Origin: Bacillota bacterium
GTDB taxonomy: Bacteria > Bacillota > DTU025 > JANLFS01
NCBI GenBank assembly: GCA_024655925.1
Contig: JANLFS010000024.1
Location: 1-32,676 of the forward strand
DNA: 32,676 bases
Reading direction: 5' to 3'
A program made the position numbers and the translations under genes. Below the pieces are notes generated by a model. The model made no database searches. It had not been told where the DNA came from and saw only the letters and a program-made list of their open reading frames with translations. Below, one piece after another: positions 22,088 to 27,241 of the stretch. Every line of letters starts with the position of its first letter. Position 1 is the stretch's first letter.

Positions 22088-23932
22088 GTGGAGGCGGTGG
22101 ACCGTTGCAGCCGTGTTTTGTGGAAACCGCGCATCTTTCGGGCCCTGGCAGCCGTGGCTGTTGTTGCGATGTGGGCTCTCGGCCTCTTGGCCCCATTCGA
22201 TCGCTCCTTTCATACCTGGCTTTCCGGGGCTTTCGCACATTCTCCTGATCCCGGAGTGGCCCTAGTTGTTGTGGACGATCGAGCGCTGGCAGCTGTAGGG
22301 CGTTGGCCGTGGCCACGGTCTGCGTTGGCCCAGCTGATTGCCAGGATCTCAGAAGGCCGCCCCGCGGCCATCGGGCTCGACATCATCCTCTCAGAACCTG
22401 ATGGCACCCATGATGAGTCTCTAGCCCAGGCGGTTCAGGCAGCTGGAGACGTGGTGCTACCTGTGCACGTTGAAACGAAGAACTTGCCGGTAGGAGCAGC
22501 TTGGTACGCGACTGCTCAAGCCCCGAAAGCTCCGTCAGGGCCAGTCGGCTCCGCAGCAGCCGGCCTTGGCCATGTCGTTGCTGTTCCAGACTCCGACGGT
22601 GTTCTTCGGCGGGTTCCGGGTTTCGTAAGTGCCGGCGGCACATTCGTCCCCGGTTTCGCCGTGGAAGTCGCCCGTGTTGCGCTTGGTCTCGCCCCGGCTG
22701 ACATCAGGTTTGTGCCAGGGTCTCACATATCTCTCGGGCGGATACAGATTCCGCTCGATTCCTCTTCCAGCCTGCTGCCGGAGTTCCCAAGACCTCCGGC
22801 GGCGTCTCAGATCTCAGCTGCGGACGTTCTCGGCTCGACGCTGGATCCGGCCGTCTTCTTCGCGGAGAAGATTGTGCTCGTTGGAGCGACAGCCCCGGGA
22901 CTTGGTGACCGACACCACACCGCATCCTCCAGGTATGGCGACCCCATACCCGGAGTCCTGGTGCAGGCGGCCGCGGTTCAGTCCATCCTGAAGGGGCGGT
23001 GTGCGCGGGCAGCGTCCCCATGGATCCTGTTCGCCGTGGGACTGGCGACCTGGATCCCTCTCAACCTGCTCTCTCAGGCCCGCCGGGCCTCACACCTCGG
23101 CTGGTCGGCGGTGGGCCACGCGGGGGTAGCACTCACCGCGGCCTTCCTGGCGGGCTGGCTGTCGGTACGGCACGCCCTGACGATTGGGCCCTCGGTGGTA
23201 GTGTTCGCGGCGGCAGCCTCATTCACGGTGGAAGCGGCTCAAAGAGCAGCACAATCAGATTCCCTCCGGATCGCGCTCTCCCGCTACGTGGGTATGGTTC
23301 CCGGCGCCGGGCAGAGGCACAGGCTACCACAAGCCGCCGCTGTGATGTTCGCAGACCTTCGAGGCTTCAGCCGTGCTTCGGCCGACTTGGACCCCGCCCT
23401 CGCCGCGGATCTGGCCAACGCCTATCTGGGTGCTATGGCTCGGGCGGTCATGGAGGCCGGCGGGGTCGTGGACAAGTTCCCCGGGGACGCGGTCCTCGCG
23501 GTGTTCGAGAGTGGAGGGCGCGACGCCATGATCCGGGCAGTCAAGGCTGCGCGGAAGGTGAGAGAGGCAGTCGCGGCGGTCTCCCGGCCACACGAGTCTG
23601 CCTCGTCCGGTGGGCCGATGGGTGTGGGTGTAGGGATCGCATACGGGCCGGTACTCCGTGCGGAACTGGGCACCACCAGTCGCGCGGATTTGACCGTCGT
23701 CGGCTCCACAGTGAACGTGGCGAAGGCCCTAGAGGATGCTGCAGGTCCCGGACAGATTCTTCTCGGGCTGCCCGCGTTGAAGTCCCGGGCCGGCCCGGGT
23801 GACGGCGTGGGTTCTTTCTCCTGCCCGGGAGTTTCGCAGAGCGGTCCCGGGTCCGATGTGGGTGCCTACCGTTCTCACGGACCTGTCCCCAAGGTGGACA
23901 GTGACCGCTGGGTAGTGCTGGAGATAGTGTGA
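22088..23932 (+). CDS. CHASE2-domain class III adenylate cyclase
   Basis: Membrane sensor-cyclase, about 614 residues. An N-terminal membrane segment (about 18-36) leads into an extracytoplasmic CHASE2 domain (about 50-305; VALVVVDDRALAAVGRWPWPRSALAQLI and GLDIILSEPD are typical), then about three membrane segments (312-328, 342-360, 366-380) and a cytoplasmic class III cyclase domain (about 415-570). Metal-binding aspartates are Asp423 (FADLRGFSRA) and Asp467 (KFPGDAVLAVF). Lys463 and Thr536 fit the adenine-selecting pair of class IIIb enzymes. Asn543 is present, but the transition-state arginine four residues later is Ala547 (VNVAKALE). Start is uncertain: GTG 22088 or GTG 22097. Same direction as the moa operon (89-base gap) and as fecR and crp downstream. 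Probably makes cAMP from ATP in response to an outside signal. Confidence 0.88.
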   Translation: MEAVDRCSRVLWKPRIFRALAAVAVVAMWALGLLAPFDRSFHTWLSGAFAHSPDPGVALVVVDDRALAAVGRWPWPRSALAQLIARISEGRPAAIGLDIILSEPDGTHDESLAQAVQAAGDVVLPVHVETKNLPVGAAWYATAQAPKAPSGPVGSAAAGLGHVVAVPDSDGVLRRVPGFVSAGGTFVPGFAVEVARVALGLAPADIRFVPGSHISLGRIQIPLDSSSSLLPEFPRPPAASQISAADVLGSTLDPAVFFAEKIVLVGATAPGLGDRHHTASSRYGDPIPGVLVQAAAVQSILKGRCARAASPWILFAVGLATWIPLNLLSQARRASHLGWSAVGHAGVALTAAFLAGWLSVRHALTIGPSVVVFAAAASFTVEAAQRAAQSDSLRIALSRYVGMVPGAGQRHRLPQAAAVMFADLRGFSRASADLDPALAADLANAYLGAMARAVMEAGGVVDKFPGDAVLAVFESGGRDAMIRAVKAARKVREAVAAVSRPHESASSGGPMGVGVGIAYGPVLRAELGTTSRADLTVVGSTVNVAKALEDAAGPGQILLGLPALKSRAGPGDGVGSFSCPGVSQSGPGSDVGAYRSHGPVPKVDSDRWVVLEIV

Positions 23933-23943
23933 TGCCGGTCACA
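23928..23943 (+). promoter_or_regulatory. Perfect CRP-type operator (TGTGA-N6-TCACA)
   Basis: The sequence TGTGATGCCGGTCACA is an exact match to the CRP half-site consensus. It overlaps the stop codon of the cyclase gene. Downstream, an extended -10 TGATATGGT ends at 23970; the start point it predicts (23977) puts the operator centre at -41.5, the class II activator position. The neighbouring CRP-family protein has the matching recognition helix. Binding is inferred. Confidence 0.75.
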
Positions 23944-23961: not shown

Positions 23962-23970
23962 TGATATGGT
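23962..23970 (+). promoter_or_regulatory. Extended -10 element ahead of fecR-crp
   Basis: TGATATGGT has the TGn extension and 4 of 6 matches to the -10 consensus. No good -35 is seen, as expected for a CRP-dependent promoter. TAAGAT at 23972-23977 is an alternative -10, but it would put the operator at an off-phase -48.5. Confidence 0.45.
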
Positions 23971-23988: not shown

Positions 23989-24768
23989 ATGTCCTGGACA
24001 ATGGGGGCGTTCGCGTTGCGATTACGCCTGAGGGCTGGTCTCTCACGGGTGGCTGTAATTGGGCTCATATGTCTCTCGGCGGCTGCTCTTGTCTTCGTGT
24101 CGCAGGCATCTTCGGGGAGTGTCTGCTCCGTCGCCCGGGTGTGGGGGGAGGCCTGGCTCCGCGGGCCCGGGGGCACGGACCCTTCACTGTGGAACAGGTT
24201 GGAGGCCGGCATGCTGCTGGAGCCGGGCACCGCCATCCGGACTGGACAGGGAGCCGGAGCTGTGTTGGTCTTTGCCTGTGGGAGCGTTGTCAGGCTGTCC
24301 GAGATGACCGAGACGATGGTGGGCCGTGCTGGAGTGTCGGCCTCGCCCAGCCAGGCACTCTCGTCAGAGCCGTCGGCAGGCGCCTCTTCCCGCGGACCCG
24401 TCACTCAAGGCATTTCGGTATTTGTCGGCAGTGTGTGGTTGGAGATAATGAAACGGCAGGTCGGGATGACGTCGTTCGAAGTCGAGACCCCTTCGGCTAC
24501 GATCGCAGTGAGAGGGACGTCCTTTGGTGTCTGGGTGGGGGAGGACGGGACCACGCAGGTGTGGGTAGAATCAGGGCTTGTGGAGGTCTTCAACGACGCG
24601 GGATCAGTGATGGTGGGGCCCGGCAAGTCCGCCTTTGTGAGGAAAGGTGAGGGGCCCAGGCCGGACGGCGTGCCGGGGCGCGGAGCGGGCCAGGACAAAG
24701 AACACCCGGGAAAGGGTGTCAAGGATGATGGCGGAAAAGGCAAGAGCAACGGAAACGCGCCGAAGTGA
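23989..24768 (+). CDS. FecR-domain membrane-anchored protein
   Basis: 259 residues. An N-terminal membrane segment or signal anchor (about 19-40) is followed by a FecR domain (about 50-215): VWGEAWLRGPGGT, LEAGMLLEPGTAIRTGQGAGAVLVFACGSVVRLSE, and VETPSATIAVRGTSFGVWV are characteristic. A middle stretch is rich in Ser, Ala and Pro. The last 40 residues are a low-complexity Gly/Lys/Asp/Pro tail (GKGVKDDGGKGKSNGNAPK). FecR domains sit outside the cytoplasm and take part in signal sensing or surface assembly. Start ATG 23989 has only a weak ribosome site (ATAGGG); ATG 24001 is possible. It lies just after a perfect CRP box and overlaps the crp-like gene, so it may act with the cyclase or be a CRP output. 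Confidence 0.85.
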   Translation: MSWTMGAFALRLRLRAGLSRVAVIGLICLSAAALVFVSQASSGSVCSVARVWGEAWLRGPGGTDPSLWNRLEAGMLLEPGTAIRTGQGAGAVLVFACGSVVRLSEMTETMVGRAGVSASPSQALSSEPSAGASSRGPVTQGISVFVGSVWLEIMKRQVGMTSFEVETPSATIAVRGTSFGVWVGEDGTTQVWVESGLVEVFNDAGSVMVGPGKSAFVRKGEGPRPDGVPGRGAGQDKEHPGKGVKDDGGKGKSNGNAPK

Positions 24769-25450
24769 CAGGGTGCAGCCAAGCACGGCGCTCTGCGCGT
24801 GCCCCCTCTTCTCGGGACTGGAACGGGAGGCTCTGGCCGATTTGACTCGGGGTGCTTTGGAGTTGAGACCCCGTCGCGGGCAGATGATCTTCTGCCAGGG
24901 TGAAGCCAGTCGGGAACTCTACGCTGTCCTGGATGGACATGTCAGGATCTTCCGGACATCCCCTGAAGGGGCGGAGAAGACTCTGGCGATTCTGGAAGAA
25001 GGGGATGTGTTCGGAGAGCTATCGGCCGTGGATGGGCTTCCGAGGTCCGCGACTGCCCAGGCTGTCACGGACTGTCGACTGGTGTCGATAAGCCCGGCGG
25101 CCTTGATGGAGTGTGTCGCCCGCGTGCCGGGGTTTGCCCAAAACCTCCTGACGCGGCTGGCGACGATGCTCAGGGAGACTGACGAAGCCGTCGACCTTCT
25201 TGCCTTCACCAGCGCCAGAGGGCGTGTTGCCTCGGCGCTCTTGCGCCACGCTTCCGCATCCGGTGTGCCATCTGATTCACCGACCCCGAGCGGACTGACC
25301 CAGTCCGACATAGCGGCGATAGCGTCCACGACCCGGGAGACGGTCAACCGTGTGCTTGGACAGCTCGTAGACGCGGGAGCCATCTCCATATCCGGCAGGC
25401 GGTACATTGTGCTCGACAGACGCCTGCTGGAGGAGATGGCTTCATCGTGA
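24725..25450 (+). CDS. Crp/Fnr family transcriptional regulator, CRP-like
   Basis: About 241 residues with the CRP layout: cyclic-nucleotide-binding domain (about 28-140), dimer helix (about 141-165) and winged helix-turn-helix (about 165-235). The binding cassette reads GDVFGELSAVDGLPRSAT; the Glu in GEL (98) and Arg107-Ser108 match the cAMP contacts of E. coli CRP. The recognition helix TTRETVNRVLGQL (R204, E205, R209) matches the R-E-x-x-x-R of E. coli CRP that reads TGTGA. There is no FNR-type N-terminal cysteine cluster, though three Cys occur near the start. ATG 24725 is chosen (AAGG just upstream), overlapping fecR by 44 bases; GTG 24773 is an alternative. Likely the effector of the cAMP made by the upstream cyclase. 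Confidence 0.9.
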   Translation: MMAEKARATETRRSDRVQPSTALCACPLFSGLEREALADLTRGALELRPRRGQMIFCQGEASRELYAVLDGHVRIFRTSPEGAEKTLAILEEGDVFGELSAVDGLPRSATAQAVTDCRLVSISPAALMECVARVPGFAQNLLTRLATMLRETDEAVDLLAFTSARGRVASALLRHASASGVPSDSPTPSGLTQSDIAAIASTTRETVNRVLGQLVDAGAISISGRRYIVLDRRLLEEMASS

Positions 25451-25473: not shown

Positions 25474-26280
25474 CTACTTCCCTGGCTTGCCTTTGACTTT
25501 GTCCTTACCCTCCCCTGATGGGCCGGGCTCACCCGAACCTCCGCCAGTGTCGGATTGACCCCGGCCGCTGCCCTTCGGCCCAGCATCGCCGGCCTTGCCA
25601 GTGTCAGACTCGTGATCGGGCTTACCAGCGGGGTGGTCCGGTTTTCCGGTCTGAGCGCGGATCTCGTTCCATGATCTCTGCTCCGACCTCAGTCTGAGTG
25701 CGAGACGGAGAGCGTCCGAGTCCCCGGATGCCCCGACCAGGATAGCTGCCACCAGCATCTCCCTGTGTGTGACCTTGAACTGTTCCCGCAGGCGTGCCTG
25801 GACTGCTGTGGGCAGCCCGCACGTGGCCGCTGCCAGGTCCGAGCACGCCGCCTCGGCAAGCTCCTCGTCTCTCGCTTTCCCGTGCAGACTCCTGCGGCTG
25901 ACCACAGCGGAGATCGCCTGCCCGAGGTTTCGTTCTTGCAGGCCCAGCGACATGGCCAATTCGCCCCACCCGGTGCCGTCTGCGGCCACGGCCAGCACGT
26001 CGGCATACGGTGTCGCGGTCTGGGACGCAATCACCGCCGCGATTACCAGTTCCCCGATGCCCCAACCTGAATCGAAGAAGGCCGTGAGCTCTTCCACGGT
26101 GAGACCGAGATCTGGGAACGCCTCCGCGACCCGCTGCAACAGAATGGGGTGTTCGAGCTGTTCGTCCGCCTGTGCGCTGGTGGCGCTCGGGTCCAGGGTG
26201 GCGCCCGTCGCGTACACCCGTGCTGGGGCGGCCAGGACCACTGCCAGCAGCACCAGCGAAGCGAGCTTGCACAGTCTCAT
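25474..26280 (-). CDS. Secreted two-repeat protein with Gly/Lys-rich tail, function unknown
   Basis: 268 residues, not recognised as a named family. A clear signal peptide (MRLCKLASLVLLAVVLAAPARVYA) implies export. The body has two similar units: about 63-113 (FFDSGWGIGELVIAAVI ... GTGWGELAMSLG) and about 163-211 (QFKVTHREMLVAAILV ... QRSWNEIRAQTG), each ending in a W-x-E-(L/I) step. The last 58 residues are low-complexity, rich in Gly, Lys, Asp and Pro and ending KGKPGK, much like the FecR protein's tail. The ATG at 26280 has GGAGG 9 bases upstream, so the longer frame to 26439 is rejected. It converges on the crp gene, 23 bases between stops. A CRP-like box and a TACACT -10 precede it. It may share a job with the FecR protein at the cell surface. 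Confidence 0.75.
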   Translation of the reverse strand: MRLCKLASLVLLAVVLAAPARVYATGATLDPSATSAQADEQLEHPILLQRVAEAFPDLGLTVEELTAFFDSGWGIGELVIAAVIASQTATPYADVLAVAADGTGWGELAMSLGLQERNLGQAISAVVSRRSLHGKARDEELAEAACSDLAAATCGLPTAVQARLREQFKVTHREMLVAAILVGASGDSDALRLALRLRSEQRSWNEIRAQTGKPDHPAGKPDHESDTGKAGDAGPKGSGRGQSDTGGGSGEPGPSGEGKDKVKGKPGK

Positions 26281-26331: not shown

Positions 26332-26374
26332 AGTGTAGTCCCTGGCCTGTTCGCAGACAGTGATGCCCATCACA
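26332..26374 (-). promoter_or_regulatory. CRP-like operator and -10 element for the secreted repeat protein
   Basis: On the minus strand TGTGA-TGGGCA-TCACT lies at 26374-26359, 9 of 10 matches to the CRP consensus. A TACACT hexamer at 26337-26332 predicts a start near 26325, putting the operator centre at -41.5, the same as for fecR-crp. The predicted leader is about 44 bases and contains the GGAGG site. Regulation is inferred. Confidence 0.6.
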
Positions 26375-26386
26375 CACCTGGTCGAG

Positions 26387-27241
26387 TCAAATGTCGAGGT
26401 AACTTTCAAGATCCCTGAGCGCAGGAACCATGTCGGCAACTAGGCTCTGAATGTCGCTGCCTTCAAGCCCGAGAGCCGCCAAAGCTCCGGTGGAAAGCCG
26501 GTAACGCAGGCCGTCCCCACCGACTCCCACCCCCATCATGAGGCATACCGCGTCCGCGATGTGAACCGCGCACGCATGTAAGCGTCCATCCGAATCGGCC
26601 TGCTCCGGGTCATGATGATGCCTGATGGCTTCCACAAGCACCTGGGGCAGGTTCCACTTGAGCGCGACCTGTTCTCCGACCAGCGCATGGTCGAAGCCGA
26701 GTACGGCTGATTCCGCCTCATTCCAGGCCGCTTTGGACGTTGAGACTGCCTCGAGGATTTCCTCATATGCACTCCGGACATGCTGGTGCAGGATGACCTT
26801 ACCAACATCATGGAGCAGGCCGGCTGTGAAGAACTCCTCGCCGAGAGGAGAGCGAGCCCTCGCGGCAAGCTTCCTGGAGCACACAGCTGCAGCAAGAGAG
26901 TGCCTCCAAAGCCCGAGTCCCTCTAGGGAGTACCCGCCCAGCTTGCGCCGGAGCAGGTCGCCAGAGGCTATGATGAGCACCTGAGAACGGATGGCAGCAA
27001 GCCCCAGTCGCACGACGGCCTCTCTGACGGTAGTTGTTCTCCGAGCGAAACCGTAGAATGGCGAGTTGGACAGACGGAGAAGTCTCGCGGTGATGGCCTG
27101 GTCGGACGAGATGGCGTCGGCGATATCAGAGATGTCTGAGTCGATGTCTTCAGTCAGCTGGATCACCCTGGTTGCGATGGCCGGCAGAGGCTTCAGATCC
27201 TCCACCGCTTCAACGAGCTGTGTGAGGGAGAGTTGTTTCAT
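26387..27241 (-). CDS. HDOD domain protein
   Basis: 284 residues, nearly all HDOD domain (about 10-215). The HD-like core is visible: LPAIATRVIQLTEDIDSDISDIADAISSDQAITARLLRLSNSPFYGF, TVREAVVRLGLAAIRSQVLI, EEFFTAGLLHDVGKVILHQH, and LGFDHALVGEQVALKWNLPQVLVEAIRHHHDPEQA. HDOD proteins are cytoplasmic signalling or regulatory proteins; many lack catalytic activity. Here the LLHDVGK motif is kept, so hydrolase activity cannot be ruled out. The ATG at 27241 has GGAGG 7 bases upstream. It follows the GNAT gene after 14 bases, so the two are probably co-transcribed. Role unknown. Confidence 0.92.
   Translation of the reverse strand: MKQLSLTQLVEAVEDLKPLPAIATRVIQLTEDIDSDISDIADAISSDQAITARLLRLSNSPFYGFARRTTTVREAVVRLGLAAIRSQVLIIASGDLLRRKLGGYSLEGLGLWRHSLAAAVCSRKLAARARSPLGEEFFTAGLLHDVGKVILHQHVRSAYEEILEAVSTSKAAWNEAESAVLGFDHALVGEQVALKWNLPQVLVEAIRHHHDPEQADSDGRLHACAVHIADAVCLMMGVGVGGDGLRYRLSTGALAALGLEGSDIQSLVADMVPALRDLESYLDI

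Follow-up and report, generated by a model that had tools for sequence, protein, structure and literature searches.

A conserved CRP-type site ahead of an exported repeat protein as the likely output of a small cyclase-CRP circuit

The window analyzed here (the whole stretch of 32,676 nucleotides) carries a cyclase gene, a fecR gene and a crp gene in a row, with a convergent gene for an exported protein beside them. Perfect or near-perfect CRP-type boxes lie ahead of fecR-crp and ahead of the exported-protein gene. The question is whether the second box is a promoter element that extends the crp circuit to an exported protein, as the first-pass annotation had proposed, or a chance palindrome. 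The features concerned are as follows.

22088..23932, plus strand: class III nucleotide cyclase with a CHASE2 domain; the genome has no other Guanylate_cyc match
23928..23943, plus strand: perfect CRP-type box TGTGATGCCGGTCACA of the fecR-crp promoter, 10/10, including the cyclase stop codon (23930-23932)
23965..23970, plus strand: -10 hexamer TATGGT of the fecR-crp promoter, 21 nt after box TGTGATGCCGGTCACA
23989..24768, plus strand: FecR-domain protein with a hydrophobic N-terminus (domain search)
24725..25450, plus strand: Crp/Fnr-family regulator, start codon uncertain, overlapping the end of fecR
25474..26280, minus strand: exported helical-repeat protein of 268 aa with a signal peptide and a K/G/P-rich tail, in no Pfam or NCBIfam family
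26332..26337, minus strand: -10 hexamer TACACT of the exported-protein promoter, 21 nt after box TGTGATGGGCATCACT, predicted start at about 26325
26359..26374, minus strand (read from 26374 to 26359): CRP-type box TGTGATGGGCATCACT of the exported-protein promoter, 9/10, centered at about -41.5 and kept in relatives

The box alone is weak evidence. When up to two mismatches were allowed, the window contained 16 boxes versus 11.6 expected, and with no more than one mismatch, the 3.21-Mb genome contained 69 boxes and the reversed control gave 41. About 44 of the 51 genomic boxes inspected were inside open reading frames as drawn by a simple ORF caller. A wealth of equally good boxes in coding DNA had been named in advance as the result that would speak against the site; this was indeed found for the box by itself, but not for the box combined with promoter spacing. 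The composite TGTGA-N6-TCAC-N22-TANNNT, in which N22 counted from TCAC equals a gap of 21 nt from the full box, had exactly two exact matches in the genome, the TGTGATGGGCATCACT and TGTGATGCCGGTCACA promoters, and none in the reversed control. Two boxes of equal geometry this close to crp are hard to ascribe to chance, as the first-pass annotation had argued. Across 120 relatives, the exact composite occurred about 115 times (a table summed by hand) and 16 times when the control was searched, which suggests that the motif serves as a functional kind of promoter in this phylum. Further 9/10 boxes were considered as targets and set aside, as the exact 21-nt TANNNT spacing was absent from each. 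These were intergenic boxes at a RidA-like gene (C34) and at a DUF1848 gene (C60), and the box TGTGATTGCCGTCACC between purA and its upstream gene (C25:6098; L097, about 1500-1590).

For the exported-protein promoter, the 9/10 match of the box, its position and the TACACT hexamer 21 nt after it were all confirmed. Assuming the usual spacing from TACACT, transcription would start at about 26325, which places the center of TGTGATGGGCATCACT at -41.5. The fixed gap of 21 nt between box and -10 hexamer fits this class II placement relative to the predicted start. A -35 element was searched for at both the exported-protein and the fecR-crp promoters, with no match at either. Between TACACT and the exported-protein ATG at 26280 lies the purine-rich GGAGGCGAGG (minus strand). 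An HDOD-domain gene (26387-27241) is located directly upstream of TGTGATGGGCATCACT on the same strand, with its stop codon about 13 nt away. At the other promoter, the TGA stop codon of the cyclase is itself the TGA of the TGTGA half-site, in the window as well as in relatives G004 and G009. A further claim, that the two boxes resemble each other in their cores, carries no weight, because the plus strand had been used for both boxes although the promoters are oppositely oriented, and because the central bases vary freely. A common core of TGTGATGGGCATCACT and TGTGATGCCGGTCACA was rejected, with positions 7 to 10 free to vary among relatives.

The promoter was then compared across relatives, for which boxes near the gene were chosen by hand with up to two mismatches permitted. 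The gene order cyclase, fecR, crp and convergent exported-protein gene was kept in the genomes of the same order. The box with its 21-nt gap was found ahead of the exported-protein orthologues in the window and in G002, G004, G008, G009, G011, G059, G097, G036 and G078, although the box of G002 was weaker than those of G004, G008, G009 and G011. In G059, G097 and G036, the exported-protein gene and crp are on different contigs, and here the box was perfect and followed at a gap of 21 nt by TAATAT, TATCAT and CATGAT, respectively; in G078, the box matches at 9/10 and the hexamer is TATCCT. Retention of the box where the gene is unlinked to crp means that its conservation is not passive linkage. 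TANNNT stood at a gap of 21 nt in 12 of 14 boxes, fecR sites included, whereas every other gap from 8 to 35 nt scored three or fewer. The box on the fecR side was present in the window, G004, G009, G059, G097 and G078; its spacing to the -10 hexamer was good in the first three and loose in the other three.

The exported protein also tracked the regulator. Of 61 genomes, 8 gave a match to CRP under 1e-30, and all of these encode the exported protein, compared with 2 of the 53 others, although five of the eight come from one order and are not independent. In G002, the crp match covers only about 83 residues and lacks the helix-turn-helix, the box has decayed to 8/10, and the exported protein is kept; a CHASE2 cyclase was looked for in this genome and not found. 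The G002 crp remnant (L179, 1926-2231), which is without the DNA-binding domain, adjoins the exported-protein gene. The exported protein is present in G023, where no close crp, no cyclase and no box were found, while G012 has both crp and the exported protein and showed no box within about 270 bp upstream. Immediately after its crp, G012 encodes another exported protein, one rich in Gly, and this gene is preceded by a box, a 21-nt gap and TATAAT (L078, 506-1429), which gives the impression of an exchanged target.

The regulator is a member of the Crp/Fnr family, with matches to PF00027 (cNMP-binding, 7.8e-24) and PF13545 (Crp-type HTH, 2.1e-16). It is the only Crp/Fnr-type protein in the genome, being the sole full HTH_Crp_2 match; the partial matches elsewhere are probably other winged helices. 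The sequence RETxxR is known to read TGTGA in CRP. The recognition helix of the window protein is RETVNR, and RETxxR was invariant in 10 orthologues, so the protein has the RE..R helix of CRP proper, and the boxes read TGTGA-N6-TCACA. In the nucleotide-binding domain, GEL...PRSA is kept, and the RSA of the phosphate cassette was invariant in the same number of CRP orthologues. At the C-helix positions that we take to correspond to T127 and S128 in the E. coli numbering, the threonine is kept and the serine is replaced by Asp. With NF008732, the NCBIfam equivalog model of the E. coli-type global CRP, the protein scored 80 bits, below the curated cut-off of 266. Its closest solved structure is that of Mycobacterium tuberculosis CRP (PDB 3d0s and 3i54).

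For the exported protein, no family or solved relative was found in Pfam, NCBIfam or PDB. Its orthologues share a conserved core with GWGE motifs. The label of repeat protein was correct, as the two halves of the protein align with each other in G059 (z 8.3) and G012 (z 7.1) and faintly in the window (z 2.2). An AlphaFold model of the single protein was mostly helical with a mean pLDDT of 50, a quality too low for a fold search. Tails rich in K, G, P and D are found at the C-terminal ends of both the exported protein and FecR.

Taken together, these comparisons indicate that TGTGATGGGCATCACT is an evolutionarily conserved CRP-type site, through which the sole CRP-type regulator very probably switches on the exported repeat protein. 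That TGTGATGGGCATCACT is a functionless chance palindrome is hardly credible: 9/10 boxes do number about 69 per genome, mostly within ORFs, but the composite occurs only twice, both times at the crp locus, and the box stands at the same place in about nine other genomes. It is also improbable, though less so, that the regulator represses or merely modulates at this site. A box beside a -10 hexamer could in principle block polymerase as well, but the fixed 21-nt spacing and the absent -35 both fit class II activation, and one would expect a site used for repression to shift its position. We therefore favor, with high confidence, the reading of TGTGATGGGCATCACT as the site from which CRP activates a class II promoter within a small autoregulated cyclase-CRP circuit.

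The ligand of the regulator deserves more caution. At its catalytic end (23700-23760), the window cyclase reads NVAKALE where class III enzymes have NxAxRLE, so that the Asn is kept and the Arg replaced. Relatives of the same order share NxAKALE, and the canonical arginine is present in more distant cyclases. The window cyclase keeps the purine-selecting Lys, for which two relatives have R or G. The canonical class III adenylate cyclase set of Asn, Arg and Lys is incomplete in the window protein, and the NxAKALE of this order, together with the R or G in place of Lys, makes cAMP production doubtful. Judged from these residues, cAMP formation by the cyclase is the least supported step of the proposed mechanism. 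A possible but less likely reading is thus that site and regulator are as proposed and that the neighboring cyclase does not supply cAMP as the ligand, because this enzyme is degenerate or makes another nucleotide, or because the CRP works ligand-free; the Asp at the S128-equivalent position would agree with this. However, the cyclase retains both metal-binding Asp residues and the catalytic Asn, its operon linkage to crp is conserved, the E...RS cassette is retained in CRP, and a Guanylate_cyc profile search found no second such protein in the genome.

The activator reading can be put together as a circuit. The cyclic nucleotide produced by the membrane cyclase, whose CHASE2 sensor faces outward, would probably be cAMP. 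Having bound it, the only CRP-type protein would then occupy the two boxes. At both promoters, CRP may take the place of the missing -35 element and bring RNA polymerase to a -10 that is itself weak. The TGTGATGCCGGTCACA box would drive fecR-crp, resulting in positive autoregulation, and the TGTGATGGGCATCACT box would drive the exported repeat protein, which perhaps binds the wall or feeds back on the CHASE2 sensor. The proposal that the crp circuit reaches an exported protein is supported by the conservation of box and spacing, also in genomes where the genes are unlinked, and by the single Crp/Fnr protein of the genome. Since the output consists mainly of exported or envelope proteins, a small dedicated surface-sensing circuit is suggested rather than a global catabolite regulon. 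A bolder version is speculative and, in our view, rather unlikely as a whole: a closed surface-sensing loop widespread in the phylum, in which a private CRP, supplied by a CHASE2 cyclase whose active site is non-canonical and whose product is possibly a nucleotide other than cAMP, controls hardly anything but itself and an unnamed exported helical-repeat family that binds the envelope and feeds back on CHASE2.

CRP proteins are usually seen as global regulators, and that of Mycobacterium tuberculosis has many targets. The latter shares the RETVN recognition helix with the window protein, but its promoter set differs. A literature search on CRP regulons in Firmicutes found nothing close. The window offers a circuit of one cyclase and one receptor, legible from sequence and provided with a defined promoter code. 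This circuit is kept in several families of a single phylum, and it leads to an exported protein family unnamed in the libraries searched (Pfam and NCBIfam). In class II promoters, CAP is centered at -41.5 (PMC7192510). The E. coli class II promoters of the gal type (PMC7192510) match those of the window in TGTGA-N6-TCACA, the center at -41.5 (predicted for the window), a poor or absent -35 and the RE..R helix, whereas E. coli CRP is global and the window genome has two exact composite sites.

As reported previously, a four-gene cluster in Campylobacterota encodes a CHASE2 cyclase, a phosphodiesterase, FecR and a TPR protein (PMC9239204); it shares the CHASE2 cyclase and the FecR-domain envelope protein with the window, but has the phosphodiesterase and TPR protein instead of CRP and the exported repeat protein. 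In Burkholderia, a CHASE2 kinase occurs with FecR (PMC5192318). The nearest known system is the Sinorhizobium meliloti cascade CyaD1/CyaD2/CyaK - Clr - SMc02177 (FecR)/SMc02178, in which Clr binds directly to the promoter of the unknown gene SMc02178 (PMC5498481, PMC13001267). It has in common with the window the CHASE2 adenylate cyclases, a CRP-family regulator beside cyaD1, a FecR-domain target and an unknown target encoded next to it; the window, too, encodes the CHASE2 cyclase, the regulator of the CRP family and the FecR target side by side. The proposed window circuit works like CyaD1-Clr-SMc02177/SMc02178, though its exported protein comes from an unnamed family. However, the Clr box is TGTT-N8-AACA (PMC5498481) and not the TGTGA-N6-TCACA of the window type, and because of this difference in DNA motif we do not claim membership in the Sinorhizobium lineage. 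In addition, Clr controls many genes, including those for motility and polysaccharide. That such a likeness to the CHASE2-Clr-FecR cascade of Sinorhizobium is seen in a lineage unrelated to it suggests a recurring signaling module made up of a CHASE2 cyclase, FecR and exported proteins under CRP control.
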